DNA of 64,000 nucleotides. It comes from Candidatus Zixiibacteriota bacterium (GTDB taxonomy: Bacteria; Zixibacteria; MSB-5A5; SM23-73-2). Location: assembly GCA_030615745.1 (NCBI GenBank), contig JAUWYR010000004.1:15685-79684 (forward strand), written 5' to 3'. The translations under genes and the position numbers were made by a program. Below the pieces are notes generated by a model. That model searched no databases. It was not told the origin of the DNA and saw only the letters and a list, made by a program, of their open reading frames with translations. Below are positions 26,535 through 61,420 of this stretch, one piece after another (position 1 is the stretch's first letter; each line of letters opens with the position of its first letter).

Positions 26535-27585
26535 AGAAATTCTTAAAAAAATCGAGCAAAGCAAAAAGATACTTATAACATCACACACAGATCCAGATGG
26601 AGATTCTTTCTGTTCACAGCTTGCTTTAGCTAATTTTTTGGATAGTCTTGGCAAGACCTATGAAATTTTTAACCAGGGAGAAATCTCGAGCAAATATCTT
26701 TTTTTAGATGAGAAAAGAAGAATAAAAAACAAATCTCTTGATGCATACGCAAAAACAGTTCAAAATCTTTTATCTTCTCCTAAAGATTATGATTTAGTTA
26801 TATTCATTGAGTGCTCTAATCTGGATCGAGTTGGGTGGGTTAAAAATTTGATACCAGAGGATAGTTTTTTGATAAACATAGACCATCACCGGGATAACAC
26901 CTTTTTCGGCAGTATAAATTATGTTGACCCAAAAGCTTCTGCTACCGGTGAGATGATCTATGATATTATGAAAACCTTTGGATTTTCTTTTGATAAAAAA
27001 ACTGCTGAGTTAATCTATGTAGCTATAATGACCGATACAGGAAGATTCAAATACTCCAATACCACTCCCAAATCTCTGAGGGTATGTGCTGATTTGTTAG
27101 GATATGGAGTGGACATTCGCTTTTTAACAGAAAAGATCTATTTCAATTTTTCTGAACCTGCTTTGAGGCTTTTAGGAACTACTTTGGAAAACTTAGAGCT
27201 TTTCGCAGGTAATAAAATATCTTTTTTGACCATTACTTATCCTATGCTGGAAAAGTTTAAAGTCCCACATCAGGATATTGATGGGTTTGTTGAATTTTCG
27301 TTATCTTTAGAAGATAGTAAAGTTGGAGCACTTTTTTTGGAGACAAAAAAGGGGTTCGCTCAAGTGAGCTTGAGGTCTTGTGATTTTATGGATGTTTGCC
27401 AAATAGCTAAAAGCTTTGGTGGAGGAGGTCACAAAAACGCATCAGGTTTTTTATCTGAGGGAAAAATCGATGTGGTTAAAAGAAAAGTTTTAGATTCCCT
27501 TTTAAAAAAGCTTAAGGAGAAATCCTCAAGCTTCTCTAAAAAAAAGATGTCATACAAAATCGAAAATCGAAAAGAAAAAAGATGA
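26506..27585 (+). CDS. nrnA: DHH-family phosphoesterase, NrnA-like (oligoribonuclease/pAp phosphatase)
   Basis: 359 aa. DHH domain: SHTDPDGDS near residue 25, IDHHRDN (the DHH motif) near 126 and TDTGRFKYSN. DHHA1 domain: FGGGGHKNASGF near residue 308. NrnA enzymes degrade nanoRNA and dephosphorylate pAp; this gene lies in the usual rbfA-nrnA-truB context. Residues about 77-82 (SLDAYA) are encoded by an exact copy of the family A 17-bp word. The start overlaps rbfA and no better start is visible. Confidence 0.9.
   Translation: MRKGKRLETKEILKKIEQSKKILITSHTDPDGDSFCSQLALANFLDSLGKTYEIFNQGEISSKYLFLDEKRRIKNKSLDAYAKTVQNLLSSPKDYDLVIFIECSNLDRVGWVKNLIPEDSFLINIDHHRDNTFFGSINYVDPKASATGEMIYDIMKTFGFSFDKKTAELIYVAIMTDTGRFKYSNTTPKSLRVCADLLGYGVDIRFLTEKIYFNFSEPALRLLGTTLENLELFAGNKISFLTITYPMLEKFKVPHQDIDGFVEFSLSLEDSKVGALFLETKKGFAQVSLRSCDFMDVCQIAKSFGGGGHKNASGFLSEGKIDVVKRKVLDSLLKKLKEKSSSFSKKKMSYKIENRKEKR
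26734..26750 (+). repeat. Dispersed element family A, copy in nrnA
   Basis: tctcttgatgcatacgc, an exact match to the copies at 40600 and 61228 and, in reverse, at 33538 and 40353. It encodes SLDAYA in NrnA. Confidence 0.75.
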
Positions 27586-28601
27586 CTCAGAATTTAGCTA
27601 AAAAGACAAATGCTTTTTCCTTACGTAACTCTACGGGTCTTTTTAATGGAAAAAAAATTCTTGATGGTCTTTTGATAGTAAACAAAAAAAGGGGTCCCAC
27701 CTCTTTTGATGTCGTCCAAAAGTTGCGTAATATACTAAATTACAAAAGGATAGGACATACAGGGACACTCGACCCCTTTGCCTCAGGTGTATTGGTTTGT
27801 TGTCTTGGCAAGGGAACAAAAATTGTCCAGTTTATAACTTTTTGGGAAAAAGAATATATCGCAAAGATTAAGTTAGGTGAACAGACCGATACATACGACT
27901 CTCAGGGAAAGATTGTGAAAAAATTCGAAGAATGCTTCGCAAATGAGGGATTTGTGCTCGAAGAAAATAAAATACAAAGTGTGATAGATTCTTTTAAAGG
28001 TGAAATTTGGCAAACTCCTCCTTTGTATTCAGCAATAAAATATAAGGGAAAAAAACTGTACCAATTTGCAAGAGAGGGAAAAGAGGTTAAAATTAAAAAA
28101 AGAAAAGTAAAAATTGAAAATATTGAGATTTTAAAGATAAAGCTCCCCTTTGTTTGGATAAAAGTAAGGTGTTCTAAAGGAACCTATATCAGGAGCTTAG
28201 GTTTTGATATTGGTAAAAAGTTAGGTTGCGGAGCATATCTAATTTCTCTATGTCGAACCAAGGTGGGTCCATTTGAGCTAAAAGATTCTTTCACTCTCGA
28301 TGCAATAAGAAAAATAAAAGATGAGGGTAAATTGAACAAAATCGTTGTCTCTATGGAAAAAGCACTCGAAAATCTCCCATCTCTTGTGGTCTCAGATGAG
28401 AACAAATTCAAAATAAAGCATGGTCAAGACCTTAAAGTAAAGGATATAAAATCTGTGAAAAAAGATTTCTCAAAAAAAGATAGGGTGGTTTTAAAGGATG
28501 GCTCTGGGAAAATCTTGGCAATAGGGGAAAGTCTGGTCTCCTCTGAAGAGATCTCAGATGAACAAAAAGTAATTTTTAGATACATGAGGGTAGTTGTTTG
28601 A
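27582..28601 (+). CDS. truB: tRNA pseudouridine-55 synthase
   Basis: 339 aa. Catalytic Asp in GHTGTLDPFASGVL; G-LLIVNKKRGPTSFDVV at the N-terminus; YSAIKYKGKKLYQFAREG and CSKGTYIRSL downstream. It makes pseudouridine 55 in tRNA T-loops. The start ATG overlaps the nrnA stop (ATGA). The first 27 or so residues precede the normal start of the fold, a short extension with no homology I can name. Around residues 115-120 the word EECFAN is encoded by a family D element (27924-27940). Confidence 0.94.
   Translation: MTQNLAKKTNAFSLRNSTGLFNGKKILDGLLIVNKKRGPTSFDVVQKLRNILNYKRIGHTGTLDPFASGVLVCCLGKGTKIVQFITFWEKEYIAKIKLGEQTDTYDSQGKIVKKFEECFANEGFVLEENKIQSVIDSFKGEIWQTPPLYSAIKYKGKKLYQFAREGKEVKIKKRKVKIENIEILKIKLPFVWIKVRCSKGTYIRSLGFDIGKKLGCGAYLISLCRTKVGPFELKDSFTLDAIRKIKDEGKLNKIVVSMEKALENLPSLVVSDENKFKIKHGQDLKVKDIKSVKKDFSKKDRVVLKDGSGKILAIGESLVSSEEISDEQKVIFRYMRVVV
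27924..27940 (+). repeat. Dispersed element family D, copy in truB
   Basis: ttcgaagaatgcttcgc; the match extends to 20 bases with 39263-39282 in the gap before smpB. In reverse it forms the tail of mutL. It encodes FEECFA in TruB. Confidence 0.6.
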
Positions 28602-29659
28602 TGGAGGTCATTTTCGACATAACAAAAATCGATTCATCTTTTTTCAAAAGACCGGTGGTAACTTTAGGGACATTCGATGGAGTCCATCTCGGGCATCAGT
28701 TAATAATAAGAAAAGTGGTTGAAAAGGCAAAAAAGAAAAAGAAAAAAAGCGTTCTGGTCACCTACGAGCCACATCCTCAATGGATTATTGACCCAGAAAC
28801 TGCCCCTTTTATTCTTACAACCCTTGATGAAAAATTATTGTTTCTCGAAAAATTAGGGCTGGACCTGACCATAGTGGTTAATTTTGATAAAAACTTTTCA
28901 AAAACCTCAGCTGAAGAATTCATAAAAAAGATTTTGGTGGAAAAATTAAATATAGGTGAATTGGTGGTTGGATATGACCACGCATTTGGAAAAAACAGAA
29001 AGGGACGCCTGCCACTTTTGAAAAAGAAAGCTAAGGAGTATCGATTTGGATTGGAGGTTATCTCTCCTATTAAAAATGACGATTTACCCATAAAAAGCAC
29101 AAAAATAAGATTTGAACTCAAATCAGGGGACTTTCAAAAAGCTGTTAAGATGTTGGGTCACGCTTATCCGATCTTGGGTAAAAAAGTGGAGGGCAAAGGC
29201 AGAGGATATAAGCTCGGCTTTCCCACCATAAATCTAAAGGTTCCTGAAAGAAAGCTTCTCCCTCAAGACGGGGTCTTTTCAGCAGAGGTGAAAATTAAAG
29301 AGGAGTTTTATCGGGGAATGGTTTATTACGGGAAAAGTCCTACTTTTGAATACAAATCAAAATCTTTGGAAGTGAATATATTCGACTTCGAACCAGAAGA
29401 AGATGTTGAAAAAGTCTTCCTTTCTCTTTTTGACTGGATTAGACCTGATATCAAATTCGATAATTTAGATGCATTAAAAAGAAAGCTTAAAGAGGATGAG
29501 AAAAAAGTCAAAAGATTACTTATGCGAAGCCTTAGGAGTCCTTCGGACATTTCGTCAAGATGTCGTCAAGACTCTTCGAGCTTCGCACATACGAAAAGAA
29601 AAAATTTAAAAGGAGGTTTTTTTGCCAATAGAGAAACAAAGAAGACAAAAGCTTGTTGA
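28598..29659 (+). CDS. ribF: Bifunctional riboflavin kinase/FAD synthetase with repeat-derived tail
   Basis: Makes FMN and FAD. FAD-synthetase half: [13 protein letters not shown] near residue 24 and [13 protein letters not shown]. Kinase half: [13 protein letters not shown] near residue 207 and DGVFSAEV. The normal fold ends near residue 308 (KRLLMRSLR). The reading frame continues another 45 codons through a palindromic element (about 29522-29600) and on into rpsO, overlapping it by 38 bp. The tail, rich in Ser/Arg/Lys, is probably an accident of element insertion that removed the original stop. It overlaps truB by 4 bp at the start. Confidence 0.93.
29522..29600. repeat. Composite palindromic element at the 3' end of ribF
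   Basis: Contains gtccttcggac, a cgtcaagatgtcgtcaagac duplication and actcttcgagcttcgcacat. The word actcttcgagc is shared with the 36-bp family C element, and the opening atgcgaagc matches family D. It is translated as the start of the aberrant RibF tail. Confidence 0.5.
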
Positions 29660-29891: not shown

Positions 29892-29905
29892 AGGTATTTG
29901 AATAA

Positions 29906-32008: not shown

Positions 32009-32034
32009 GATTTGGGCTTTATATAATAGGCTTT

Positions 32035-32070: not shown

Positions 32071-32071
32071 T

Positions 32072-33367
32072 ATGAAAACGAAATTCGATGGAAAGTATAA
32101 TAAAACGATATTGCAAAATGGGATAAGGGTTGTCTCTGAGAAGATCCCCTGGGTTAGTTCTGTTTGTGTTGGTGCATGGGTTGATGTAGGGTCAAGAGAT
32201 GAAAATCAGAAAGAAGGCGGATTGTCTCATTTAATTGAGCATATGCTTTTTAAGGGGACTAAAAAAAGGTCAGCAAAACAGATTGCCTTAGCCTTGGAGT
32301 CGATAGGAGGAAGTCTCAATGCTTTTACAGGGAGGGAGAACACCTGCTATTATGCTAAGGTCTTGGATGAGAATCTTGATTCAGCAATTGACCTCTTATC
32401 TGACATTTTAAAAAACCCTCTTTTCGACCCGGTTGATTTCAAAAAGGAAAAAAGAGTGATAATAGAGGAGATCAAAGACGCTGAGGATACTCCATCTGAT
32501 CTGGTCTTTGACCTTTTTATGGAGGCTTTGTGGAAGAATCAAACCTTAGGAAAACCGATTTTAGGAACTGTGGAAAGTGTAAAAAGAATTAAAAGAACAA
32601 ACCTCTTAGCATATTTTAAACGCAATTATATTCCACCTAAAATAGTTGTTTGTGCCTCAGGAAACCTAAGTCATAAAAATTTAGTCAGGATGGTGAGAAA
32701 AAAGTTTGATAAAAATTTTAGAGCTTTTTCTTTTCACCGAACTGACCCAAAGATAGAAAAAAAGCCCATACCTTATACCCGGAAGATGGTAACTGAGAAA
32801 GGGATTGCCCAAACTCATATCTGTATTGGATTCCCTGCTTTTGATTTCAACCATCCACAAAAATATCCAGCTTTAGTTTTGAGCAATATCTTGGGTGGAG
32901 GAATGAGTTCTCGCCTTTTCCAAACAGTTAGGGAGAAATTAGGACTTGTTTATAATATATATAATTTTTTCGACTTCTATTTTGATTCAGGAACATTCGG
33001 TGTATATCTCGGAACCAACCAGGAGGATATCCAGATGGCAGTGAAGGCGGTTTTGAGGGAATTTTCCAAAATAAAAAATGACAGATTGCCAAAGACAGAA
33101 CTTAAGAATGCTAAATATCAGCTAAAGGGTAATCTGATATTGGGAGCTGAGAGCATCTCTTATCGGATGAGTAGATTAGCTCGTCATGAGCTATATTCTC
33201 AAGATTACTGGAGTTTGAAAAAATCTATCTTGGCTATTGAAGGGGTAAAAGCAAAAGAAGTAAAAGAGGTTGCTGAAAAGATCTTAGACTCTGATAAAGT
33301 CTGCATAACCATTTTGGGTCCGGTAAAAACAGGGGTGATAAAAAAAATAGATTGGGGACTTTTTTAA
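32072..33367 (+). CDS. M16-family zinc metallopeptidase (processing peptidase type)
   Basis: 431 aa. The inverted zinc motif HLIEH is at residues 53-57, with the distal metal Glu in VIIEEIKDAED near residue 131. The second half has the inactive-domain signature NILGGGMSSRLFQTVREKLGLVYNI. Relatives include B. subtilis YmxG (MlpA) and the mitochondrial processing peptidase beta subunit; the position directly after pnp is typical. The substrate is unknown. The start ATG follows the 36-bp family C element, with no good ribosome site at normal spacing. Confidence 0.92.
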   Translation: MKTKFDGKYNKTILQNGIRVVSEKIPWVSSVCVGAWVDVGSRDENQKEGGLSHLIEHMLFKGTKKRSAKQIALALESIGGSLNAFTGRENTCYYAKVLDENLDSAIDLLSDILKNPLFDPVDFKKEKRVIIEEIKDAEDTPSDLVFDLFMEALWKNQTLGKPILGTVESVKRIKRTNLLAYFKRNYIPPKIVVCASGNLSHKNLVRMVRKKFDKNFRAFSFHRTDPKIEKKPIPYTRKMVTEKGIAQTHICIGFPAFDFNHPQKYPALVLSNILGGGMSSRLFQTVREKLGLVYNIYNFFDFYFDSGTFGVYLGTNQEDIQMAVKAVLREFSKIKNDRLPKTELKNAKYQLKGNLILGAESISYRMSRLARHELYSQDYWSLKKSILAIEGVKAKEVKEVAEKILDSDKVCITILGPVKTGVIKKIDWGLF

Positions 33368-33381
33368 CTTCTATTCAGAAA

Positions 33382-34386
33382 ATGAAACCTATTTTATTTC
33401 CCCTTTTTTTTCTTTTAATTTTAAGTTTATCACTTTTTTTTATCTGGAGAATTGTGTATGCGCGTATGCGTCAAGAGACCGAAGGTCAAGAGACATCAAG
33501 AGAAAGGTTTAAATCCCAACAATTTTCATCCGAAAATGCGTATGCATCAAGAGATAAAAATAATATTTTACTCTATCATAAAATAGAAGATAAGTGGGAG
33601 TGGGGAATCACCCGACAAAGGATAAGCCAATTTGAAAAGCAGATGAAATTTCTTTATAAGCAGGGTTATAAATTGATGAGGTTGGACCTGTCCGGTCAGG
33701 AAAAAAATTTCACTAATGACTTTGATTCTGAGAACAAAAAGATTTTTTTGACCTTTGATGATGGTTATGAATCTGTCTATACTCATGCTTTTCCTATTCT
33801 TGAGAAGTTTGGTTTTTCTGCAACTGTTTTTCTTATCACAGGATGGGTAGGAAAAAAGAATTTGTGGGATATAAACTGGGGGAAAAAGTTTAATCACCTC
33901 TCTTGGTCACAGATAGAAGAGCTTAAAAAATTCGGATTTAATTTTGGTTCTCATACTGTGAATCATCCTGATCTAACTAAACTTAATGGAAAAGAAGTTG
34001 AATATGAGCTTTTGAATTCAAAAAATATGATAGAAGATAGGTTAGGGGAGAGGGTTGAGTTTTTATCCTATCCATTTGGAAAATATAATAGATCAGTTCA
34101 AAGAATTGCTGAAGATATTGGTTATAAAAACGCGTTCACTATTTGCTCTGGACCAAAAAAATTTTCCGACCCATATGCTTTAGGACGATTAGGGATCTAT
34201 CTTTTTGATTCGAGCTTGACTTTACATATAAAATTGAACCAAACACCAATTTTTTGGATAGAGGATATGAAAGGAAGGATAATTAACCAATTTGCCAATG
34301 GGACAACTCTTTTCAAGTCAAAACCAAAATACGATTTTTGCTTAAAAAGTGAAAAGCCTAAAAGTATCTTCGTAAAAAAGGTATGA
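33382..34386 (+). CDS. Membrane-anchored polysaccharide deacetylase (NodB fold)
   Basis: 334 aa from ATG 33382; an in-frame TTG at 33352 would overlap the peptidase gene by 16 bp. An N-terminal membrane helix (PILFPLFFLLILSLSLFFIW) is followed by a linker and the NodB domain: FLTFDDGYES (metal Asp pair), SHTVNHPDL (H-x3-H metal site) and LSYPFGKY. It probably removes acetyl groups from a cell-wall or exopolysaccharide sugar. The linker is unusual: it is built largely from two family A elements (33462-33503 and 33538-33554), giving RMRQETEGQETSRE and NAYASRD. Confidence 0.88.
   Translation: MKPILFPLFFLLILSLSLFFIWRIVYARMRQETEGQETSRERFKSQQFSSENAYASRDKNNILLYHKIEDKWEWGITRQRISQFEKQMKFLYKQGYKLMRLDLSGQEKNFTNDFDSENKKIFLTFDDGYESVYTHAFPILEKFGFSATVFLITGWVGKKNLWDINWGKKFNHLSWSQIEELKKFGFNFGSHTVNHPDLTKLNGKEVEYELLNSKNMIEDRLGERVEFLSYPFGKYNRSVQRIAEDIGYKNAFTICSGPKKFSDPYALGRLGIYLFDSSLTLHIKLNQTPIFWIEDMKGRIINQFANGTTLFKSKPKYDFCLKSEKPKSIFVKKV
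33462..33503 (-). repeat. Dispersed element family A, long 42-bp form in the deacetylase gene
   Basis: Its reverse complement begins tctcttgatg and ends catacgc, the two halves of the 17-bp word. Between them are tctcttgaccttcgg and a further tctcttgacg unit. It is in frame and gives 14 codons of the linker after the membrane helix. The 32-bp form at the smpB end equals this copy minus one 10-bp unit. Confidence 0.7.
33538..33554 (-). repeat. Dispersed element family A, short copy in the deacetylase gene
   Basis: gcgtatgcatcaagaga, the exact reverse complement of the 17-bp word. With the flanking bases, 23 bases are shared with 40600 and 61228. It is read here in a third frame as NAYASRD. 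It lies 34 bp from the long copy in the same gene. Confidence 0.75.
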
Positions 34387-38621: not shown

Positions 38622-39698
38622 AGGCAAAACCAGGGATTTTTGATGATTGATGATTAATGAAGATTTTTAAATTGCGAGGTGAGTTTACATAATGTTTATT
38701 ATAAGACCTTTTATGGTTCGCTTTATCTTGAGTTCTTAAAAGATAAAGTTCGCATTCCTTCTTTTTTAGAGGGAAACTTTTGTTCGCTTTTTTTAGCCTG
38801 GTCAAATGGAAGAAATTTTAAAACCCAGTTCCCTGACGTTAGGAGGATTCCATTATGAAGTCATTATCTGTAAAAGGAGCCGGCAGAGCTTCCCAGAAAT
38901 CCCAGCCCACGTATGTCAAACTCTTAATGGAATGCGAACCTTTCAGGTTTGCCTTTCCTTATAGTTTTTCTTAAAAGTAAAGCTGAAGCTTTACACTCCA
39001 TATCTCACCTTATAGATTTGGTTTTTTCAGAAATCTCTTATTTTAAGATTATGTGGGTTATTGACTTAAACTAAAACTTTAAGTCATAATAATATATTAT
39101 CTGGAGTGCAACAACTTGTTGTTGCAACTCTATGCGAAAACAAGTTTTCGCACTACCTAAGAGAAAAGCAGAGCAAGGGTGCTCTGCGCTATGAGGTTTT
39201 GTGTTTTTTGAACAGACAGGAATGTCTGTTCTACCTTCGGTTATTTTTTAACATCGGGCATGTTCGAAGAATGCTTCGCAAAGCCCGACGCTACATTTAA
39301 AAAAATTTATCAAACACAAAAATTGGGATTACTAACTATCTTTGCAAACGTTTTTTATTTTTCAGCAAACCTCTCCCCTATCAGACCTAAACTAAAACTT
39401 TAAGTCGAACGTCGGGTATGAAACCCGACGCTACGCTTAAATTTTCTGTGCTGGTCAAGTCCCCTGACTCGACCAGAAAATCTCTGTTCCGCGGGGATGT
39501 TATCTCTGGCCAGCCAGGCATCCCCGCAAATAAATTCTGGGTGGATGATAACATCCGCCCAGAACAAAGAAATATATGTACGTAATCTTTTGTCCCTAAA
39601 TCCTTTTTTTAGGAACAATTATTATTAATTAGTATATAAGTATATGATATGCTCAAATTTCCTTGCAACATGATTTTCATTTTGATATATTAAAAAAG
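38622..39698. repeat. 1-kb repeat-rich gap between leuS and smpB
   Basis: Apart from a doubtful 39-codon frame (38855-38974) I see no gene. The region is crowded with short hairpins: gtaaagctgaagctttacactcc (38977-38999); gtgcaacaacttgttgttgcaac then gcgaaaacaagttttcgc (about 39105-39153); gaacagacaggaatgtctgttc (39209-39230); a family D word (39263-39279) within cgggcatg...gcccg; cgtcgggtatgaaacccgacg (39409-39429); gcggggatg...catccccgc (about 39491-39527); and ttctgggtggatg-ataa-catccgcccagaa (39535-39564). The stretch therefore looks like an accumulation site for the dispersed hairpin elements. Confidence 0.7.
38855..38974 (+). CDS. Doubtful 39-residue peptide
   Basis: ATG 38855 to TAA 38972-38974, preceded at ideal distance by aggagg (38841-38846), the only strong ribosome site in this 1-kb gap. 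The peptide starts MKSLSVKGAGRASQKSQPTY and is unlike anything I recognise. The 3' end runs up to a repeated hairpin. It could be a real small protein, a leader peptide or the remnant of a lost gene. Confidence 0.25.
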   Translation: MKSLSVKGAGRASQKSQPTYVKLLMECEPFRFAFPYSFS

Positions 39699-40169
39699 AT
39701 GGAAAAAAAAGAAGAGATAAAAATAGTAGCGACTAACAGGAAGGCTCATCACGACTATACTATAGTTGAGACCTATGAGGCTGGGTTGGAACTAAAGGGG
39801 AGCGAGGTTAAATCTTTAAGGGAAGGTAAAGTCTCTTTGAGGGACTCCTTTGCCAGGATAGTTGATGAACAGCTACATTTATTAAATATGCACATAAGCT
39901 CCTATGAGAAGGCATCTAAGTTTGGACATGATCCAAAAAGAACAAAAAAATTGTTGATGCATAAAAGGGAAATAAAAAGACTTATGGGCAAAACTTTTGA
40001 AAAGGGATACACCTTAGTCCCTTTAAAAATCTACTTTAAAGGAAGTTTTGCCAAGGTGGAATTAGCCCTAGTCACTGGTAAAAGAAAATATGATAAAAGG
40101 AGAGCCCTGGCTGAAAAAGAGGCTAAAAGAAAAATAGAAAGAGCCTTTAAAGAGAGACAAATCTCTTGA
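39699..40169 (+). CDS. smpB: SsrA (tmRNA)-binding protein SmpB
   Basis: 156 aa from ATG 39699. KIVATNRKAHHDYTIVETYEAGLELKGSEVKSLR is the classic N-terminal barrel wording (only its first part quoted matters: NRKAHHDY and GSEVKSLR). HISSYEKASKFGHDPKRTKKLL and KRKYDKRRALAEKEAKRKIER are the tmRNA-binding and decoding tail. It rescues stalled ribosomes with tmRNA, which is not seen in the window. An upstream in-frame TTG (39663) would add 12 atypical residues. The stop TGA lies inside a family A element, so the last residues (QIS) are element-derived. Confidence 0.95.
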   Translation: MEKKEEIKIVATNRKAHHDYTIVETYEAGLELKGSEVKSLREGKVSLRDSFARIVDEQLHLLNMHISSYEKASKFGHDPKRTKKLLMHKREIKRLMGKTFEKGYTLVPLKIYFKGSFAKVELALVTGKRKYDKRRALAEKEAKRKIERAFKERQIS

Positions 40170-40193
40170 TGTCTCTTGACCTTCGGCATACGC
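40162..40193 (+). repeat. Dispersed element family A, 32-bp form at the smpB stop
   Basis: Begins tctcttgatg and ends catacgc, with tctcttgaccttcgg between. It equals the 42-bp form in the deacetylase gene less one 10-bp unit. The smpB stop codon (TGA) is the tga of the first unit. Confidence 0.7.
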
Positions 40194-40200
40194 AAATAAG

Positions 40201-41667
40201 ATGGCAAAAAAAGTAGCTTTTTTAACAATCTTTTTAGTGTCGTCGTTTGCCTTTACATCTTTATCCCAAAGCATTTATGAACTTTCAAACTTACCTAAAG
40301 TAAAAATAGATAAAGTTGATTATGTTTGTTTAGATGAAGTTGTCCGGGTTTTGCGTATGCATCAAGAGATAGGTGGTAAGATTTATCAGGATGAAAAAGA
40401 GGGAAAAGCGATATGGTATTATAAGGGTCAAAGATTGGAATTTACACCCTTTTCCCCTTACGTTTTAATTGATAACTCAATCTATGATCTTTTGTTCGAG
40501 GTAAAATTAAAGAAAGGGGAAATCTTTGTTCCTCAAAAAAATTTCTTTTCCCTTTTAAAAGAGTTAAAAAAGCAAAGCAAAAAATTCAAGGAAAACTTAT
40601 CTCTTGATGCATACGCATTTTCAAAACCCTCTTATCTTGAGTATAACATCACAGATATTTTTGCATCTAAAAAGCTCAATGGAATTTTAATCGAGATATT
40701 TATTTCCTATCCCATAAATTATGAGGTTTTTAAAAGTGAGAATAACTGTATCAACATTTTCTTCTATGAGGGGAAAATCGACACCGGTTATTTTAATTTC
40801 AAAGAAATTCCAAGTATAATAAAAAAGATAACGGCTTATCAATACGGAAACTCAGTCCAGGTCTCCTTATGGACGAAAAAGTCCTTTCATACACTATCCC
40901 ACAATCTGGAATCTTTTCCTTTTCGTATTCAAATCTCCTTGGAGGATACAACCGAGATTGCTAAAAGTGCACAAGATGATCTAATCGACGTGGTGGTCAT
41001 TGACCCAGGTCATGGTGGGGTCGATTTTGGATTTTTTGGTCAAAGGAGTCTTTGGGAAAAAGATATCACTTTAGATATAGCCTTAAGGTTAAAAAAGCTT
41101 TTAGAGAAAGAAACTGATTTAAAAGTTGTCCTTACAAGAGATTATGATGTTTTTATTCCTCTTAAAAAAAGAGCAAGAATAGCAAATAAAGAGGGTGGAG
41201 ACCTGTTAATAAGCATTCACTGTGAATTTTCTGAGGACGAAAATGAATCTGGATTTGAAATCTTCTTTTTCGGAGAGTCTCAAAAAGATAAAGAAACGAC
41301 TTTAACTTTTAAAGAGGATTTAGAAAAAACCAATGAAATTTTTTCTGATTCGATTTTTATTCTCCCTGACACCACCCAATACCTGTTCTTTGAACAGTCA
41401 AAAAATTTAGCTTTTATAGTTTGTGAGGAGATGGAAAAAAAACTTAAAATGTTTTCAAAGGGAATTTTTCAAGAAAAGTTTTTAGTTTTGAAAAAAGCCT
41501 ATATGCTTGGAATTTTAGTTAATTGTGGATTTATCTCCAATCCAGATGAGGAAAAGCTTTTGGCACAAAGTCCTTTTAGAGAAAAAATTGCAGAGGCTCT
41601 GTTTTTTGGAATAATGAGGTTTAAAATTGAGGGTGAGCACGAAAAAAGCTATGAAGCTAAAAGATGA
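40201..41667 (+). CDS. N-acetylmuramoyl-L-alanine amidase (Amidase_3) with altered active site
   Basis: 488 aa. A signal peptide (1-23) is followed by an N-terminal beta-rich region resembling copper-amine-oxidase-N/AMIN modules. The Amidase_3 domain starts near residue 265: DPGHGG (zinc His), SLWEKD (zinc Glu) and SIHCEF in place of SIHxNx (zinc His). The last motif, normally LVExGFxSN with the catalytic Glu, reads ILVNCGFISN, so that Glu is Asn here. Zinc binding seems intact but activity is doubtful. Two family A elements lie in the N-terminal half (40353, 40600), giving LRMHQEI and SLDAYA. It overlaps the murI region slightly at the 3' end. Confidence 0.85.
   Translation: MAKKVAFLTIFLVSSFAFTSLSQSIYELSNLPKVKIDKVDYVCLDEVVRVLRMHQEIGGKIYQDEKEGKAIWYYKGQRLEFTPFSPYVLIDNSIYDLLFEVKLKKGEIFVPQKNFFSLLKELKKQSKKFKENLSLDAYAFSKPSYLEYNITDIFASKKLNGILIEIFISYPINYEVFKSENNCINIFFYEGKIDTGYFNFKEIPSIIKKITAYQYGNSVQVSLWTKKSFHTLSHNLESFPFRIQISLEDTTEIAKSAQDDLIDVVVIDPGHGGVDFGFFGQRSLWEKDITLDIALRLKKLLEKETDLKVVLTRDYDVFIPLKKRARIANKEGGDLLISIHCEFSEDENESGFEIFFFGESQKDKETTLTFKEDLEKTNEIFSDSIFILPDTTQYLFFEQSKNLAFIVCEEMEKKLKMFSKGIFQEKFLVLKKAYMLGILVNCGFISNPDEEKLLAQSPFREKIAEALFFGIMRFKIEGEHEKSYEAKR
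40353..40369 (-). repeat. Dispersed element family A, first copy in the amidase gene
   Basis: gcgtatgcatcaagaga, exact reverse complement of the 17-bp word, read as RMHQE. It is the same orientation and frame as the accB copy (relative to transcription) and opposite to the second copy in this gene. Confidence 0.75.
40600..40616 (+). repeat. Dispersed element family A, second copy in the amidase gene
   Basis: tctcttgatgcatacgc read as SLDAYA, as in nrnA. The match extends to 23 bases (through attttc) with the accB and deacetylase copies. Confidence 0.75.
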
Positions 41668-47928: not shown

Positions 47929-48350
47929 AGGCGTGGATTTCACCTTGTTATAATAGACAATATTAGATAGCCACTGTCTATTCAAAACCCTAACTTTAAT
48001 TAGTTGTGTCAGGAGCTTTACTCCTGACACAACCCAAAAATGGAGTGTAATCATTTATGATTGCAGGGATACCGTTTTGGTGGGATGCATTCCTTTCTTT
48101 CGTTTGTCAGCATTAGGAAATCCCGACGACAACCAGCCTTAGTAATTCCTATACTCAAGGCATCAAAAAGTTCCTTAAAATTTTGAGGGGTTGATGTTCG
48201 GTTCCGATTCCCAATTCAAATGAATATTAATATTGACTTTTAGAAAGAACCAATTATACTTAGCCTAATCAAGAAGGTGGCTTTAGCTTTGAATAATGTG
48301 GTTTTCTCAGTTGGTTTTATATTTAACTTAAATTTCTTTGGAGGTAAGTT
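47929..48350. other. 422-bp gap: hairpins, a decayed frame and a promoter
   Basis: Holds gtgtcaggagctttactcctgacac (48006-48030, hairpin), tgtaatcatttatgattgca (about 48048-48067), and on the minus strand a 50-codon open stretch (ending near 48056) that reads KELFDALSIGITKAGCRRDF. The stretch has no start or ribosome site and looks like the remnant of a gene. The promoter at 48233-48260 serves the next gene. Confidence 0.5.
48233..48260 (+). promoter_or_regulatory. Promoter of the SBBP/dockerin protein gene
   Basis: TTGACT at 48233-48238, 16-bp spacer, TATACT at 48255-48260; an approximately 85-nt leader precedes the TTG start at 48351 (ribosome site ggaggt). Confidence 0.7.
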
Positions 48351-49961
48351 TTGCCTAAAATTAAGTCAAGACCTCGATATAGAAAGGCACTAACACCTGC
48401 ACTCATTATTTGTTTTATAATCGCGGTAATCCTGATTATAGTTTTCAATAAAGCTTTTTTTCAACCGGTATTTAAAAGAGAGGTTACTATTAAACCTGAG
48501 TATCTTGAAAATGAAAGTGAGGAATTGTGGGTTTCCAGATATAACGGACCAGCAGATGGTAATGATTGGGCTAAGGCTCTGGTGGTGGATGGGTTCGGCA
48601 ATATCTACGTGACTGGAGAAAGCGAAGGTAAGACCACAGGTAAGGATGTTGCCACCATAAAGTACAATGGAAAAGGAGATACCTTATGGGTAAAAAGATA
48701 CAATGGACCCGTAAATGGCGACGATTGGGGTGCTTTCTTAGCCATAGATGAATCTGGAAACGTCTATCTGGCTGGGGGAAGCGAAGGAGAGGGGACAGGT
48801 CTTGATTATCTCACCATAAAATATACCCCTTCCGGAGAGGTTATCTGGATGAAAAGGTATAATGGTTCTGGAAACTCATCTGACAGAGCTTCAGCTTTGG
48901 CCATAGACGACTCCGGAAACGTTTACCTTACCGGCGAAAGCGAGGGGGAAGGCTCAGGCTTTGACTATGCCACTTTGAAGTATGACAAAAATGGTGAGGT
49001 TGTTTGGGTCAGAAGATATAATGGGTCTGAAAACGGAAATGACTGCGCTTATGCTTTAGCTGTTGACGCTTATGGCAATGTTTACCTGACCGGTTACAGC
49101 TATGGGGGGTCAACGAGATCCGACTATCTTACCTTAAAATATAATACTTCGGGTGATCTCCTGTGGGTTAAAAGATTCGATGGATCCCAAAACTCTGTTG
49201 ACAGAGCTTATGCTTTAGCTGTGGGTATCTCCGGAGATGTATATGTAACCGGATATAGTCATGGAGACCAAACAGACAAAAACATTCTTACGATAAAGTA
49301 CAATTCTTACGGAAAGCTACTCTGGGCGAAAAGATACAATGGATCGGCCAATGGATTGGACCGGACTCATGCCTTAACTTTGGACAGCTCTGGTAATGTC
49401 TATGTAGCTGGACAGAGCCACGGTGTGGTTACCGGCTCTGATTTTGTTACTATTAAATATAATCCTTCAGGCGATACTCTCTGGGTGAGAATATACGAAG
49501 GTCCTGGAAACCACAACGATTGGGATTTAGCTCATGCTATGGCAGTAGATGATTTTGGCAGCATCTATGTTACCGGCGAGAGTCAGGGGACCGGAACAGA
49601 TCACGACTACGCCACGATAAAGTACGATCTCTCTGGTAATCTCCTCTGGGTTAGAAGATATAATCAGCCCTCTATTGATAATGCTTTTGCCTTAGCTGTA
49701 GATCCCTCTGGTAACGTCTATGTGACCGGATTCAGCTACGGCCCCGGGACCACTTCTGATTATGCCACTATCAAATATGGGCAGTTTATAAGAGGAGATG
49801 TCAATGGAGATAAAACGATAGATTTAGCTGATGCAATCTACTTAGCAAACTATTTACTTAAAGGCGGAGGCCAACCACCTGTCCCGATTTCTCGAGCTAA
49901 TGCCAACGGGGATGATGCTGTCAACCTATTGGATGTGATACACATAGTGAGCTATTATTAG
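48351..49961 (+). CDS. Surface-anchored SBBP beta-propeller with dockerin-like tail
   Basis: 536 aa, TTG start with ttggaggtaag upstream. A single N-terminal membrane helix (about 16-36) has no obvious cleavage site, suggesting a signal anchor. Eight repeats of about 52 residues follow with consensus LWVKRYNGS-NG-D-A-ALAVD-SGNVYVTG-S-G-T-SDYATIKYN-SGD, the seven-bladed-propeller-related SBBP repeat. The end (about 480-536) has two dockerin-like loops: GDVNGDKTIDLADAIYLANY and a second with NANGDDAVNLLDVIHI. It shares its tail type with the protein at 44762, suggesting a common sorting or attachment role. Confidence 0.85.
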   Translation: MPKIKSRPRYRKALTPALIICFIIAVILIIVFNKAFFQPVFKREVTIKPEYLENESEELWVSRYNGPADGNDWAKALVVDGFGNIYVTGESEGKTTGKDVATIKYNGKGDTLWVKRYNGPVNGDDWGAFLAIDESGNVYLAGGSEGEGTGLDYLTIKYTPSGEVIWMKRYNGSGNSSDRASALAIDDSGNVYLTGESEGEGSGFDYATLKYDKNGEVVWVRRYNGSENGNDCAYALAVDAYGNVYLTGYSYGGSTRSDYLTLKYNTSGDLLWVKRFDGSQNSVDRAYALAVGISGDVYVTGYSHGDQTDKNILTIKYNSYGKLLWAKRYNGSANGLDRTHALTLDSSGNVYVAGQSHGVVTGSDFVTIKYNPSGDTLWVRIYEGPGNHNDWDLAHAMAVDDFGSIYVTGESQGTGTDHDYATIKYDLSGNLLWVRRYNQPSIDNAFALAVDPSGNVYVTGFSYGPGTTSDYATIKYGQFIRGDVNGDKTIDLADAIYLANYLLKGGGQPPVPISRANANGDDAVNLLDVIHIVSYY

Positions 49962-50244
49962 AGAGTAAACGTTAAACGGAAAATAGAAAACAGTTAAAGA
50001 TGAAAGAAATCCAATTGTTGGTGCAGGGGTTTAACCCCTGCACCAGCTTTTGTGACCATACTCGAACAACTCTTTGCAAATTTCAAACAGTTGCGTCAAA
50101 AGCTTTTCTCCTGACGCTTAAAAAGGTGTCAGGACTGAGAGATCCTGACACAACACAAAATCATCCAAAGAACCCACCCTTATTAATTTTTCTTGTGTTT
50201 TCTCTGTTGGTCTTAAGACCAACAGAGAACTAAAATTTTTTAAC
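49962..50244. repeat. Hairpin cluster between convergent genes
   Basis: Four hairpins in 200 bp: gtgcaggggtttaacccctgcac (about 50021-50043), a gcgtcaaaagcttttctcctgacgc unit (about 50093-50117), gtgtcaggactgagagatcctgacac (about 50128-50153) and ctctgttggtcttaagaccaacagag (about 50202-50227). The last may serve as a terminator for the flanking convergent genes, though it lacks a T-run. Stem sequences differ in every case. Confidence 0.6.
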
Positions 50245-51234
50245 TCACGAAAACAATTTTACAAGAAAGTAAAGAAAAGCGGCTATTGCTCCTGAGGCCG
50301 GGATGGTGATGACCCAGGCAACCACAATATTTTTAACTATCCCCCATCTCACCGCGGATAGCTTTTGAGAGGAGCCCGAGCCCATAATCGCTGTTGAGAT
50401 CACATGGGTTGTGCTGATAGGAATTCCGAACCAGGATATTCCAGCGATAACCGTTGCTGCAGATGTTTCAGCTGAGAACCCATGAACTGGTTGGAGTTTG
50501 AACACTTTTGTTCCCATGGTCTTGATCACCTTCCACCCACCCAAACTGGTTCCTAAAGCCATGGCAAACGCACATGCTATCATAACCCAGAGTGGAACCT
50601 TAAATGCGTCTAGTGCTCCATAGCTTACCAAAGCCATAGTTATGATACCCATAGCGTTCTGAGCATCATTCATCCCGTGAGAAAAGGACATCCAGGCAGC
50701 GGATAATATCTGAAATTTTTTGAAATAATTGTTGACCTTTCTTGGATTCGACCTTTGGAAAAGCCATGATATAACAACGATCAATAAAATCCCTCCTAAA
50801 AACCCAAAAACAGGAGAAAGAATCATCGCAATTGCAATTTTTTTAATTCCACCTATCATTATAATTTTAAACCCTGCCTCAACGATGCCTACGCCTAAAA
50901 GTCCTCCTATTAAAGAATGGGTAACACTGACGGGAATACCGGAAAAGCTTGCAAGACCGGTCCAGAAACTGGCACCTAACAATGCCACTAAGACCATAAC
51001 CAGATTCACATAAGAGGGATCAATCACCCCCTTCCCTATTGTAGCAGCAACTGCAGTATGGGATAAAGCACCAAAAAAATTCAAAGCCCTTGCCATGAAA
51101 ATTGCACTTCGTGGGGAAAGCGCTTTGGTGGAAATGGTTGTGGCTATGGCATTAGCACAATCATTAAAACCATTAAAGAAATCGTAGACTAACGCCGCAA
51201 AGATTATAGCTAAAAGTAAAACAAACTCAGGCAC
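50245..51234 (-). CDS. pit: PiT-family inorganic phosphate transporter
   Basis: 329 aa with about ten membrane helices and the two PiT signature halves: DFFNGFNDCANAIATTIS near residue 18 and SHGMNDAQNAMGII near 185. Low-affinity, cation-coupled phosphate (or metal-phosphate) uptake. It overlaps the upstream DUF47 gene by 8 bp, the standard pairing. At 329 aa it is the short PiT form. Confidence 0.93.
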   Translation of the reverse strand: MPEFVLLLAIIFAALVYDFFNGFNDCANAIATTISTKALSPRSAIFMARALNFFGALSHTAVAATIGKGVIDPSYVNLVMVLVALLGASFWTGLASFSGIPVSVTHSLIGGLLGVGIVEAGFKIIMIGGIKKIAIAMILSPVFGFLGGILLIVVISWLFQRSNPRKVNNYFKKFQILSAAWMSFSHGMNDAQNAMGIITMALVSYGALDAFKVPLWVMIACAFAMALGTSLGGWKVIKTMGTKVFKLQPVHGFSAETSAATVIAGISWFGIPISTTHVISTAIMGSGSSQKLSAVRWGIVKNIVVAWVITIPASGAIAAFLYFLVKLFS

Positions 51235-51853
51235 TTTTTACTACCACACTCTCTATAGCTACTGCGATATTCTCACAATGGTCAGCTGCTGTTTCCAGAC
51301 GACCATATATCTCTTTCCATTTTATTGCCATCCTCCAATCCGGCTCACTATCTAATAGCTCTGCTGTTGCTTTTCTGGTGATCTCATCTGCTTGATTTTC
51401 TAAAGAATTAATCTCAATAAAGAAGGGCAAAAGATTCTCTAAATGCTCTAAATCTGATATTGCTTTCTCTATTTGCTCAACCGCTTTATATATGATATTG
51501 ATCAATTCAATACATTCAGGAGTGAGCTTTTCTATTTTGAAAAAATAAAGCCTCGCAGAGATACCTTCAATTGCATCCAGAACATCGTCGAGCTCAGATG
51601 CTAAAATATGAATATCCTCCCTGTCTATTGGGGTGATAAATGTCTGATTTAATTTCTTTATGATCTCATGAATGATTCTGTCCCCCTCGTGCTCTATCTC
51701 TTTTATCCTCTTAACCTTCGCTTCAACATCAGTGTAATCATCTGCAAGACTTTTTAAAGTCTTAGCCCCCTCCAAAAGATTTTTCGCAGATTTTCTGAGT
51801 AGCTCAAAAAATTTCTCCTCTTTAGGTAGAAGTCTTGGAAGTTTTATCATCAA
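51227..51853 (-). CDS. DUF47/PhoU-like phosphate transport accessory protein
   Basis: 208 aa, all helical. Contains KRIKEIEHEGDRIIHEI and TPIDREDIHILASELDDVLD, the PhoU-type E/DxxxD metal-binding helices; duplicated in the C-terminal half with ENQADEITR. Proteins of this family (TIGR00153) accompany Pit transporters and probably control them. Start ATG 51853, with aggagaag on the minus strand upstream. Translationally coupled to pit. Confidence 0.9.
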   Translation of the reverse strand: MMIKLPRLLPKEEKFFELLRKSAKNLLEGAKTLKSLADDYTDVEAKVKRIKEIEHEGDRIIHEIIKKLNQTFITPIDREDIHILASELDDVLDAIEGISARLYFFKIEKLTPECIELINIIYKAVEQIEKAISDLEHLENLLPFFIEINSLENQADEITRKATAELLDSEPDWRMAIKWKEIYGRLETAADHCENIAVAIESVVVKSA

Positions 51854-51919
51854 ATCTTCTCCTTAGCTAAAATTTAAGAACTGAATATAATAAAAAACTT
51901 CAAAAATCCAAAAGTTTTT

Positions 51920-53701
51920 TTATTTTTTTAAAAAAGTTAAAAGTTTTTTTATAAGCTTCTCCTTAGTAAAAATCTCAGATTCAATTTTAAATCCAGCTTT
52001 TTGTAATTTTTTAACCAGCTCCAGAATTCTTGGAGACTTTAGCCCGTAAAAGCCTAAATTCTTTAGATCTTCAAAAAAATTCTCTTTTTTACAAAAACAA
52101 ACTAACCTCCCTGTGCTTAATAACATAATCTTTTTTGCAAGCTCTGCTACCAGATCGATGTCGTGAGAGATAAGGATTAAGGTCTTTCTTTTTGAGGAGA
52201 GCTTTTTCAAAAGATTTTTTATATCTTCTATTCCTCTGAGGTCAAGTCCACAGGTGGGTTCATCCAGAATCAAAACTTCTGGGTCCAGTGCTAAAATTCC
52301 AGCAATGGCAACTTTTCTTTTCTCACCGTCAGATAAAGAATATGGGGAGCGAAAAGCGAACTTTTCGAAATCGAGCCCAACTAATAATAAGGACTCTTTT
52401 ACTCTATTTTTAATTTTTCCATCAGGCAAATTTATGTTCTTTGGACCAAAAGCAACATCTTCGAAAACTGTCTCCTCAAAAAGTTGAAGCTCTGGAAACT
52501 GAAAGGATAAACCCACAATCTTTCGAAGCTTTTTAAAATCTATATTTTTCTTTGCATATTTTTTCGAAAGACTTATGTTGTCAACAATAACTTCCCCTTC
52601 AGTTGGAAATAGGAGCGCATTCAGATGTTGAACTAAAGTTGACTTTCCTGACCCTGTAGGACCAATAATTCCTAAAAAGTCACCTTTTTCGATTTCGAAG
52701 CTGACATTATCCAAGGCTCTTTTCTCTTGTGGAAGCTTTTGGTCATAAACAAAGCTTAAATTTTTAGATTGAATAATCTTAAAAAAAGACTCTTTTTTTT
52801 TAACTTTAGATTCTTTTGTTGAAAAAACTTCAAGTGTTTGTTGAACTTCTGAAAAGTTATTTTTCAGGCTTTTTAACTCATCTACCAAACCATCAACATC
52901 GTGCACCTTTTTTTTAAATTTGATTCCAAATTTGTTAAGCTCAAAAAGAATCTCTTGTGTCAAAGGGACTCCCAGTCCAATCTTTTTTAATTCTTCTATT
53001 TTGCTAAAAACCTCATCATAGCCTCCATCCAGAAAGATTTTTCCTTGGTCTAAGACCAATATCCTCTGAGCAGACATTGCCTCCTCTGGAAATTGGGTGA
53101 TGTGAAAGATGGTAAGCTTTTTTTTAAGGAGGCTTTTTTCGAATAAATTCTTAACAAGAATATTAAACTCCTCCCTTCCTTTTGGGTCTAAAAGGGAGGT
53201 CGGTTCATCCAGAACAAGATATTTAGGGCGCATAGCTAAAACTGATGCTAAAGCAACCTTCTGTTTTTCCCCTCCTGAGAGTTTATGAGGAGAATGTCTT
53301 TTTAGCTTTTCAAGATTGAATGTTGAAAGTGCCCACCCTACCCTTTGTTTTATCTCTTGATGGGACAAAGCTAAATTCTCCAATCCGAAAGCTATCTCTC
53401 TTTCAACAGTTGTGGAGATGAACTGATTATCCGGATTTTGAAATACCATCCCTACCAGAAGCCTTATTCTTTTCTGATCCTCTTTACTTACAGTATCCAA
53501 GCCATCCACAAAAACCTTTCCCTTTGAGGGTAAAAGCAAAGCATTCAAAAGCCTTGCCAGGGTAGTCTTGCCTGAGCCATTTGGACCAATTATTGCAACA
53601 AATTCACCCTCATTAAACTTCAGATCGATATTATCCAAAGCTAAAAGGAGGCTATCCTTATCCAATTTATATTGAAATGAGACATCCCTTAGTTCAATCA
53701 T
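51920..53701 (-). CDS. Fused double ATPase of an energy-coupling factor (ECF/CbiO-type) transporter
   Basis: 593 aa with two complete ABC ATPase halves. First: GPNGSGKTTLARL near 39, LSGGEKQKVALAS and LVLDEPTSLLDP. Second: GPTGSGKSTLV near 352, LSDGEKRKVAIAG (signature with Asp for the second Gly) and LILDEPTCGLDL. The wording fits EcfA1/EcfA2 rather than general ABC importers. Usually these are two genes next to ecfT; here they are one polypeptide and no EcfT or S component lies within this window. It would energise vitamin or metal uptake with partners encoded elsewhere. Confidence 0.88.
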   Translation of the reverse strand: MIELRDVSFQYKLDKDSLLLALDNIDLKFNEGEFVAIIGPNGSGKTTLARLLNALLLPSKGKVFVDGLDTVSKEDQKRIRLLVGMVFQNPDNQFISTTVEREIAFGLENLALSHQEIKQRVGWALSTFNLEKLKRHSPHKLSGGEKQKVALASVLAMRPKYLVLDEPTSLLDPKGREEFNILVKNLFEKSLLKKKLTIFHITQFPEEAMSAQRILVLDQGKIFLDGGYDEVFSKIEELKKIGLGVPLTQEILFELNKFGIKFKKKVHDVDGLVDELKSLKNNFSEVQQTLEVFSTKESKVKKKESFFKIIQSKNLSFVYDQKLPQEKRALDNVSFEIEKGDFLGIIGPTGSGKSTLVQHLNALLFPTEGEVIVDNISLSKKYAKKNIDFKKLRKIVGLSFQFPELQLFEETVFEDVAFGPKNINLPDGKIKNRVKESLLLVGLDFEKFAFRSPYSLSDGEKRKVAIAGILALDPEVLILDEPTCGLDLRGIEDIKNLLKKLSSKRKTLILISHDIDLVAELAKKIMLLSTGRLVCFCKKENFFEDLKNLGFYGLKSPRILELVKKLQKAGFKIESEIFTKEKLIKKLLTFLKK

Positions 53702-53949: not shown

Positions 53950-53969
53950 AAAAGCAAACTCAAAGCTTC

Positions 53970-55698: not shown

Positions 55699-55715
55699 TT
55701 TTTGCTCAAATTTTT

Positions 55716-56585: not shown

Positions 56586-56587
56586 TT

Positions 56588-57928: not shown

Positions 57929-57947
57929 TTTCTCTCGATTAAATTAA

Positions 57948-59691: not shown

Positions 59692-59719
59692 AAGCTCCTT
59701 TCAAAGCCTCCTTGAAGTT

Positions 59720-60844
59720 TTAGATCTTTTTCTTTTGTTTTGTCAGGTCGAACTCTTTCCAGCCTCTATCAGAGGCTCCGGTGATTCCTTCCAGTCTCAA
59801 GTCAAAATCGTCCGGATTGGTAGCCTGTGACATAGCCTCCTCATAGGAGATGAGCCCTCTTTTGTAAAGATCCATAATCGATTGATCAAAAGACTGCATT
59901 CCGTATTGAATTGCGCCTGACTCGATCAGCTCCGAAATTAAGGGAGTTTTCAGCGTATCCATAATATATTCCTTCACAGATGCAGTGTTAACTAAGACTT
60001 CCACAGCTGGAACTCTTCCTGGACCATCGGATCTGGGCAGAAGCCTCTGACACACTATTGCTTTCAAAGTTGCTACTAAAAGCATCCGGATCTGCTGATG
60101 TTGATGAGGCGGATAAAAAGAGATTATTCTGCTTATTGTCTCAACAGCATTCAAGGTATGCAAAGTGGTTAAAACCAAATGCCCGGTATCTGCTGCGGTC
60201 AAAGCAATTGACATTGTTTCTATATCTCTTATCTCTCCAATCAATATCACATCTGGGTCCTGACGGAAAGCTTGTCTTAAAGCGGTGACAAAGGATTCTG
60301 TATCACCACCTATTTCACGTTGAGAGATTACACTTTTTTTGTTCCGAAACATAAACTCAATAGGATCCTCAATGGTCAAGATGTTTTCCCTTCTATTCAT
60401 ATTTATCTCCTCTATTATCGTGGCTAAGGTGGTGGATTTACCTGAGCCGGTTGTGCCGGTAAGGATGATAAGCCCTCTTTTGTTATTAGCCAGGCTTTTT
60501 ACCACTGGCGGGAGATTAAGTTCCTCAAAAGAGGGAATTTCTAATCGGACCGACCTCATCGCAATCCCCACAGTTCCTCTCTGCCGATAGAAATTCACTC
60601 TAAAACGACCCATTCCAGAAACACTTAATGCCAGATCAAGCTCATTTTTTACTAAAAAATTTTGTTTCTGCTGTTGACTTAAAATCTGATCAGTTATCTT
60701 CTCAATATCATCAACACTTAAAGCTTTAGAGTTGATTTCCTGAAGAAGACCATCTACCCTCAATGTAGGAGGTAAACCAACCCTTAGATGTAGGTCAGAA
60801 GCTTTTTTTTCGATCATTTCGGTCAACATCTCTTTAAGATTCAT
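59720..60844 (-). CDS. pilT: Type IV pilus retraction ATPase PilT-like
   Basis: 374 aa. N-terminal PAS-like domain (KKASDLHLRVGLPPTLRVDG), then the secretion ATPase: Walker A GTTGSGKSTTLA near residue 130, Asp box, Walker B ILIGEIRD with the preceding RQDPD, and His box LTTLHTLNAVE. The length and absence of a cysteine-rich N-terminus fit PilT/PilU rather than PilB. No other pilus gene is in the window. It lies between accB (100 bp upstream) and accC (28 bp downstream), interrupting the normal accBC pair. Confidence 0.92.
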   Translation of the reverse strand: MNLKEMLTEMIEKKASDLHLRVGLPPTLRVDGLLQEINSKALSVDDIEKITDQILSQQQKQNFLVKNELDLALSVSGMGRFRVNFYRQRGTVGIAMRSVRLEIPSFEELNLPPVVKSLANNKRGLIILTGTTGSGKSTTLATIIEEINMNRRENILTIEDPIEFMFRNKKSVISQREIGGDTESFVTALRQAFRQDPDVILIGEIRDIETMSIALTAADTGHLVLTTLHTLNAVETISRIISFYPPHQHQQIRMLLVATLKAIVCQRLLPRSDGPGRVPAVEVLVNTASVKEYIMDTLKTPLISELIESGAIQYGMQSFDQSIMDLYKRGLISYEEAMSQATNPDDFDLRLEGITGASDRGWKEFDLTKQKKKI

Positions 60845-60943
60845 TTTTATCCCCTTTCTTTTTGGTAACTTTTACCATTTTTATTAATCGACCTTATTTT
60901 GAGATTGGTTTACTCTCATTTACCAAAACAAGGGGATAAAAAA

Positions 60944-61420
60944 TCATGCTGGTTCTATTAAGATTAAAGCCTGTCCGTATTCCACTGGTTTTCCATTCTC
61001 AACTAAAATCTTTGTAACCCTTCCAGCTACCTCTGATTCTATCTCATTCATCAGCTTCATAGCCTCAATAATGCAAACAACCTGACCCACTGTGATCATC
61101 TGATTCAAATCCACGTAAGGCTTTGCATCCGGTGCTGGTGCCCTGTAAAAAGTTCCCACCATTGGAGATTTGATTGGGATTAAGTGGTCTTTATCTTTTG
61201 GTTCTGTGATTTTTTTCTCTAATTCTTTCTCTTGATGCATACGCATTTTCTCTTCAACAGGTATTTGGATAACATCTTTGGATTCAAGGTTTGCTGGATT
61301 GTTTTGACGTGGCAGGCGCTTAGTTATCCTCACCTTTCTTCCCCAGCTCGACACCTCCAACTCCTCGATATCGCTTTCCTCGACCAGTTTTATTAGTTTT
61401 CTTATTTTTGATTCTCGCAT
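60944..61420 (-). CDS. accB: Biotin carboxyl carrier protein of acetyl-CoA carboxylase
   Basis: 158 aa. The biotin lysine is in CIIEAMKLMNEIE near residue 122. The N-terminal dimer region (IRKLIKLVEESDIEELEV) precedes a variable linker. PIKSPMVGTFYRAPAPDAKPYV opens the biotinyl domain. In the linker the peptide RMHQE is encoded by a family A element (61228-61244). The gene begins 26 bp after pepP on the same strand. Confidence 0.95.
   Translation of the reverse strand: MRESKIRKLIKLVEESDIEELEVSSWGRKVRITKRLPRQNNPANLESKDVIQIPVEEKMRMHQEKELEKKITEPKDKDHLIPIKSPMVGTFYRAPAPDAKPYVDLNQMITVGQVVCIIEAMKLMNEIESEVAGRVTKILVENGKPVEYGQALILIEPA
61228..61244 (+). repeat. Dispersed element family A, copy in accB
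   Basis: tctcttgatgcatacgc on the plus strand; accB reads the reverse complement as RMHQE, the same translation as the amidase copy at 40353. It lies in the flexible linker of BCCP, a region free to vary in length. Confidence 0.75.

Follow-up and report, generated by a model that had tools for sequence, protein, structure and literature searches.

The DNA analysed here, a window of 64,000 nucleotides (nt) from contig JAUWYR010000004.1 of a Candidatus Zixiibacteriota bacterium (assembly GCA_030615745.1), carries a short word that recurs within unrelated genes, among them those for an NrnA-like protein, a polysaccharide deacetylase, an amidase and AccB. An earlier note on this window reported five exact copies of a 17-mer, and these were recovered at 26734 (+), 33538 (-), 40353 (-), 40600 (+) and 61228 (+). 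A sixth copy, with one mismatch, lies at 33462 (-). Dinucleotide shuffles of the window, searched at up to three mismatches, gave a mean of 0.11 matches and never reached six. The peptides that the note had assigned to the word by orientation and frame (SLDAYA, RMHQE and NAYASRD) are correct. Its statement that the word always lies inside genes holds for the five copies of the window, all of which fall in called open reading frames (ORFs; Table 1), but not for the genome as a whole, in which 32 of 42 exact copies are inside called ORFs. A match at 30696 was rejected as chance, the same residues being present in a sister species.

A genome-wide count, which the earlier note had suggested, gave those 42 exact copies in the 2.28-Mb genome (G000; 74 contigs, 98.55% complete), well above the five of the window, and none of the reversed pattern used as a control. 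At up to three mismatches, 113 copies are found in G000 and one in G001, the genome of the sister species Zixibacteria SM23_73_2, whose orthologous DNA is ~75% identical. Further properties were measured in a sample of ~842 kb, consisting of stretches picked around matches, together with whole-genome pattern searches; the proportions given below rest on this sample. Within the sampled stretches the 17-mer is followed by A in every exact copy, and the true unit is therefore 18 bp, or six codons. As 18 is a multiple of three, the frame problem that the note had seen in a unit of 17 bp falls away.

The unit, TCTCTTGATGCATACGCA, consists of TCTCTTGA and the hairpin TGC-ATAC-GCA. The general form of this first family, TCTCTTGA followed by a 3-bp mini-hairpin, occurs in 116 copies in G000 and one in G001 (control, 0), and divides into ~18 subfamilies with covarying stems, both sides of the stem being altered in TCG..CGA, TCC..GGA, CGC..GCG, TAC..GTA, TCA..TGA and TGG..CCA. 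Pairing holds in 98.4% of the pair cells of 21 distinct variants, which show 17 double changes, and the covariation score of 0.737 compares with at most 0.076 in controls with a slid partner. Perfect stems are formed by 19 of the 92 distinct 10-mers that follow TCTCTTGA (p=4e-16).

A second family, TTCNNNGAATSCTTCGSA, likewise of 18 nt, numbers 52 copies in G000, which brings both families together to ~170 copies. Read from the sequences, the two share T1, G7, A8, T13, C15 and A18, and a scan of exact repeats by length showed sharp edges at 18 nt for the units of both. The eight second-family copies in G001 all lie within one longer repeat and are thus not independent insertions.

Copies are also found within and beside one another. 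At 17 places in the sample an 18-mer is split after its base 10 by the 15-mer TCTCTTGACCTTCGG, which gives a 33-mer, and the split 18-mers are of four loop types. An additional 18-mer stands at the edge of TCTCTTGACCTTCGG in four places, and the nested composites measure 33 or 51 bp. Three copies follow one another head to tail at C34:40205-40258.

Comparison with the sister species revealed empty sites. Clean 18-bp gaps are present in the G001 DNA opposite C23:1302, C30:18783, C33:25465 and C33:25579 (the last of the second family), and a clean 33-bp gap opposite C43:26711. The 51-bp composite is missing from G001 in two orthologue pairs, and the elements at C40:56704 and C40:56917 each correspond to a net 18-bp gap of less tidy placement. 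At C23:1302 the boundaries of the gap cannot be shifted, and the insertion there is therefore 18 bp without target duplication. Amidases of other genera, six orthologues in all, are short of exactly the six residues RMHQEI, and the change is therefore an insertion gained in the present lineage. The clean in-frame gaps that the earlier note had proposed to look for in orthologues, as in nrnA and the amidase, thus exist, and they bear out its core idea of a mobile DNA that enters genes in several frames and is translated along with them.

On these comparisons, the 18-mers are almost certainly mobile. One word in high copy number, with most copies in genes, might also be expected of a conserved protein motif, or of a DNA word under selection (a Chi, uptake or binding site, for example) that arose by mutation in place. 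That explanation is given virtually no credence, however, because frames and peptides differ between copies, subfamilies covary and nested copies split other copies; furthermore, orthologues lack the whole block rather than carrying point variants of it, and the clean 18-, 33- and 51-bp gaps refute an origin in place. Nothing serious speaks against mobility, although movement is deduced from comparison with one sister species and was not observed. The 18-nt element, present in ~170 copies, is one of the smallest mobile elements known.

The amplification is recent: stray changes are carried by only about six copies of the main subfamily and its one-mismatch relatives, while the two species differ at roughly one base in four. 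The expansion is confined to this species out of 132 genomes of the phylum. Exact 18-mers met in a Lachnoclostridium, a member of the Campylobacterales, one of the Alphaproteobacteria and a viral contig were set aside as single copies, in about the number expected by chance for such collections.

Insertion occurs at a defined target. Of 106 unique first-family contexts, 70 have C at -4, 83 have A at -1, 68 have A at +2 and 61 have T at +3. Among 33 contexts of the second family, 22 have C at -4, 21 have T at -2 and 20 have A at +2, and A and T are equally frequent at -1. The target common to both families is C-N-W-A / element / N-A-W. In nearly all 18-nt elements the last four bases, C15-N-N-A18, match the left target C-N-W-A, a match that would explain the head-to-tail tandems. 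The base at -1 moves from A towards T when position 9 of the element is A rather than T (p=9e-5), the shift being partial.

Genes are not specifically targeted. In the sample, 95 of 153 automatically collected elements (one of them a chance match) lie fully in ORFs, or ~62% of all sampled family members, and 10 overlap an ORF end; the coding share of the sample is 84%. A target-weighted model predicts that 81% of sites should be genic, and 72 of the 106 unique contexts are inside genes and 6 partly so, slightly below that expectation. Copies occur on both strands of genes, which ruled out an RNA-level regulatory element.

One of the six frames through the element contains TGA, and this frame is used by 0 of 72 unique in-ORF copies, although ~12% of genic sites would be expected to fall in it. 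A test in which flanks were joined was added since the ORF caller is blind to interruptions in the TGA frame; joining the flanks of the remaining copies restored no ORF of at least 150 codons in that frame. Avoidance of the TGA frame implies translation of the element. Genes are entered in each of the other frames, though unevenly (p=0.003): SLDAYA and RMHQE are over-represented and the LLMHT and CVCIKR frames are scarce, a pattern to be expected of a peptide that is actually made. Six of seven 17-nt forms (TTC loop) are intergenic, which agrees with frame selection, the copies being few. Host genes gain 6, 11 or 17 codons. No host benefit is proposed; the element behaves as a parasite that does little enough harm for coding sequence to tolerate it.

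These features recall the palindromic elements of Rickettsia, with which the earlier note had drawn a parallel. The 18-mers resemble them as mobile repeats that enter unrelated housekeeping genes in frame and are translated, and in behaviour the parallel stands. In size it does not, since Rickettsia palindromic elements are ~150 bp long (PMC10969869). Across a range of ~100-150 bp, they form larger palindromes, belong to another phylum and are unrelated in sequence to the 18-mers. Size and sequence exclude membership of that family, and the genic share slightly under the target-weighted ~81% speaks against a direct analogue selected for gene entry; that the 18-mers are either is very improbable.

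Elements of the window are collected in Table 1. Beyond the word itself, the window contains TCTCTTGATCGATACCGA three times, two nested composites and four elements of the second family.

Table 1. Elements of both families in the 64,000-nt window.
Feature	Position	Strand	Context
TCTCTTGATCGATACCGA subfamily copy	2516..2533	-	within ORF
TCTCTTGATCGATACCGA subfamily copy	3130..3147	-	within ORF
TCTCTTGATCGATACCGA subfamily copy	4715..4732	-	intergenic
Second-family 18-nt element TTCGAAGAATGCTTCGCA	14348..14365	-	
Second-family 18-nt element TTCTGTGAATCCTTCGGA	20722..20739	-	
18-bp element TCTCTTGATGCATACGCA	26734..26751	+	nrnA-like ORF 26506-27585, read SLDAYA; exactly these six residues missing in G001 orthologue
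Second-family 18-nt element TTCGAAGAATGCTTCGCA	27924..27941	+	
51-bp nested composite TCTCTTGATG [TCTCTTGACCTTCGG] [TCTCTTGACGCATACGCG] CATACACA	33453..33503	-	17 codons missing in G001 deacetylase orthologue
Inner 18-bp element TCTCTTGACGCATACGCG	33461..33478	-	variant with C-G outer pair; contains the one-mismatch copy at 33462
18-bp element	33537..33554	-	polysaccharide-deacetylase ORF 33352-34386, read NAYASR
Second-family 18-nt element TTCGAAGAATGCTTCGCA	39263..39280	+	in longer repeat; contig 64 paralogue has first-family element at edge
33-bp nested composite TCTCTTGATG[TCTCTTGACCTTCGG]CATACGCA	40162..40194	+	first TGA of the composite serves ORF 39663-40169 as stop codon
18-bp element	40352..40369	-	amidase ORF 40201-41667, RMHQEI added; exactly six residues missing in six other-genus orthologues
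18-bp element	40600..40617	+	same amidase ORF, read SLDAYA; longer gap of orthologues in region
18-bp element, antisense	61228..61245	+	accB ORF 60944-61420, read RMHQE, variable linker; G001 gap not clean (10 residues)

Taken as a whole, it is probable that a mobile 18-nt element has recently multiplied in one Zixibacteria species and is moved by a Y1 HUH enzyme of the REP-associated tyrosine transposase (RAYT) type, REP standing for repetitive extragenic palindromic. For the HUH enzyme as the driver, considered by itself, the chance is put at even or somewhat below; it is favoured but unproven. A single-strand HUH layout is suggested because the left target is kept in the flank, the same motif is present at the 3′ end and a motif lies 5′ of the hairpin. 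Single-strand transposition by Y1 HUH enzymes relies on bases 5′ of the hairpin to choose where the DNA is cleaved (PMC8266576). G000 contains three Y1 genes, all of them RAYTs above the NCBIfam cut-off (NF047646).

It is proposed that an enzyme acting in trans on single-stranded DNA, most likely such a RAYT-type transposase, would cut twice, once behind the C-N-N-A of the left target and once behind the C-N-N-A with which the element ends (positions 15-18), and that the freed 18-mer would then be joined to a new C-N-W-A site. Guide-like pairs as in IS200/IS605 may form between G7 and C(-4)/C15, and between position 9 and both base (-1) and A18. The assignment of these pairs to G7 and base 9 follows the rule of IS608. 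The pairs G7/C(-4),C15 and T9/A(-1),A18 fit the sequences, the shift at -1 being partial and the second family mixed.

Several observations weigh against an HUH driver. The 18-mer flanks none of the three RAYT genes; on contig 17 the RAYT gene adjoins a different REP-like hairpin (TGGAGTG...), and on contig 25 it is flanked by another repeat. The elements lack GTAG, occur as singlets and have a stem of only 3 bp, and the DNA fold of this hairpin is calculated at -0.2 to -1.6 kcal/mol. The relation between the -1 base and position 9 is partial, and in the second family A equals T. There is no replication-orientation bias beyond target composition (30 of 94 observed as against a fraction of 0.354 expected); a raw bias of 30:64, considered as support for a single-stranded route, was discarded once target composition and the forbidden TGA frame had been modelled. 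Finally, G001 has six Y1 genes and almost no elements.

The ties of the RAYTs of contigs 17 and 25 to other repeats leave room for a different enzyme, such as a DEDD recombinase like that of IS110, a tyrosine recombinase that acts on folded single strands, or another. The absence of target duplication is compatible with several recombinase classes, and movement of the same 18-mers by one of these is a real, if lesser, possibility. However, C-N-N-A at both the left target and the 3′ end of the element, with a motif 5′ of the hairpin, fits the layout of IS200/IS605 (PMC8266576).

Movement through an RNA intermediate by a reverse transcriptase also deserves mention, the tiny hairpin elements and their nested copies resembling the small dispersed repeats (SDRs) of cyanobacteria. 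Elhai and colleagues are said to have proposed an RNA route for SDRs in 2008. For the 18-mers this route is unlikely, as neither G000 (98.55% complete) nor G001 has a match to RVT_1 (PF00078), and insertion shows a sharp sequence target with no duplication and no tail.

A bolder form of the HUH reading, offered tentatively, is that no smaller transposition unit may be known than the 18-mers. Each would be a single-stranded hairpin cassette of 18 nt, moved in trans by an HUH enzyme that reads the same C-N-N-A at the target and at the 3′ end of the cassette. With six codons and five of six frames open, such a cassette would amount to a genome-wide six-residue insertion system tolerated by genes.

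Other repeats accompany the families in this genome. The REP-like hairpin by the contig 17 RAYT gene, TGGAGTG-TCAAGC-TTTA-GCTTGAC, occurs in stretch L150 near 1159 and at 29 places in the sample, and several TGGAGTG copies hold other hairpins in the loop, for example CCCTGGCCGGGCAGGC. The contig 25 RAYT gene has the repeat AAATGCAGCAACAAC on both sides (stretch L152, 1382 and 2036), which is likely its cognate REP. The palindrome GGATGTTATCATCC has 19 copies within larger inverted arms, at 39543 and 53768 of the window and at 17 other places in the sample. Several contigs carry a sharp-edged 17-nt hairpin, TCCCTGGCCGGGCAGGC (18 copies), or a perfect 22-bp palindrome, CTGTTGGTCTTAAGACCAACAG (10 copies). 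The ends of G000 contigs 12, 32, 33, 37, 42 and 54 share a repeated segment with the first-family elements TCTCTTGATCCTTCGGA and TCTCTTGATCGATACCGA; on contig 12 this segment reads like a helix-turn-helix transposase gene. At ~48000-52000 of the window, the sign of the GC skew flips from + to - and the majority of genes change to the other strand, which resembles a replication terminus.

How DNA pieces of less than 30 nt move has been an open question since the cyanobacterial SDRs. Here, a single genome displays the unit, its target, covariation, empty sites and the effect on proteins, and contains three candidate enzymes. A mobile element of whole codons can evidently spread through coding sequence at near the rate expected from site availability, and add short peptides to core proteins such as AccB.

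Among known systems, the non-autonomous elements of IS200/IS605 share with the 18-mers insertion 3′ of a short fixed target that is kept in the left flank, the absence of target duplication and a terminal motif at the right end; in those elements, hairpins are recognised. In contrast to them, the 18-mers have no left- and right-end hairpins and measure 18 nt in total. The REP/RAYT system likewise combines a short conserved word 5′ of a small hairpin with many copies, and three RAYT genes are present in this genome. The cuts made by RAYTs lie close to the hairpin, at CT or CA (PMC8266576). The head of the element is TCTCTTGA or TTCNNNGAA, however, with no GTAG or GGAG, and whereas REPs are largely extragenic, the 18-mers are mostly genic and are singlets rather than inverted pairs, none beside a RAYT gene.

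The hairpin elements of mitochondria (double-hairpin elements, GC clusters and byps) are very short mobile hairpins, some of them in genes. They are longer than the 18-mers and organellar, and byps are skipped by the ribosome, whereas avoidance of the TGA frame implies that the 18-mers are translated.

The closest kind are the SDRs, very small mobile repeats of Nostoc, compared here by their published descriptions (among them PMC2884548 and PMC4390886). Like SDRs, the 18-mers are dispersed repeats of less than 30 nt with sharp edges, a covarying hairpin and nesting (the 17 33-mers in 842 kb). SDR1-8 of Nostoc punctiforme and its relatives, described by Elhai et al., are reportedly dispersed and 21-27 nt long, with hairpins that show compensatory changes and copies nested within copies. 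The present elements are shorter (18 nt, with a 15-nt nested form), consist of other words as far as descriptions tell, and insert at CNWA/NAW, not at HIP1. A passage of PMC4390886 places a precise insertion point of SDR5 inside HIP1. In this genome no reverse transcriptase was found, and the host belongs to the Zixibacteria, a different phylum from that of the Nostocales. The 18-mers are further set apart from SDRs by a defined target, by empty sites in a sister species and by measured in-frame insertion into coding sequence.

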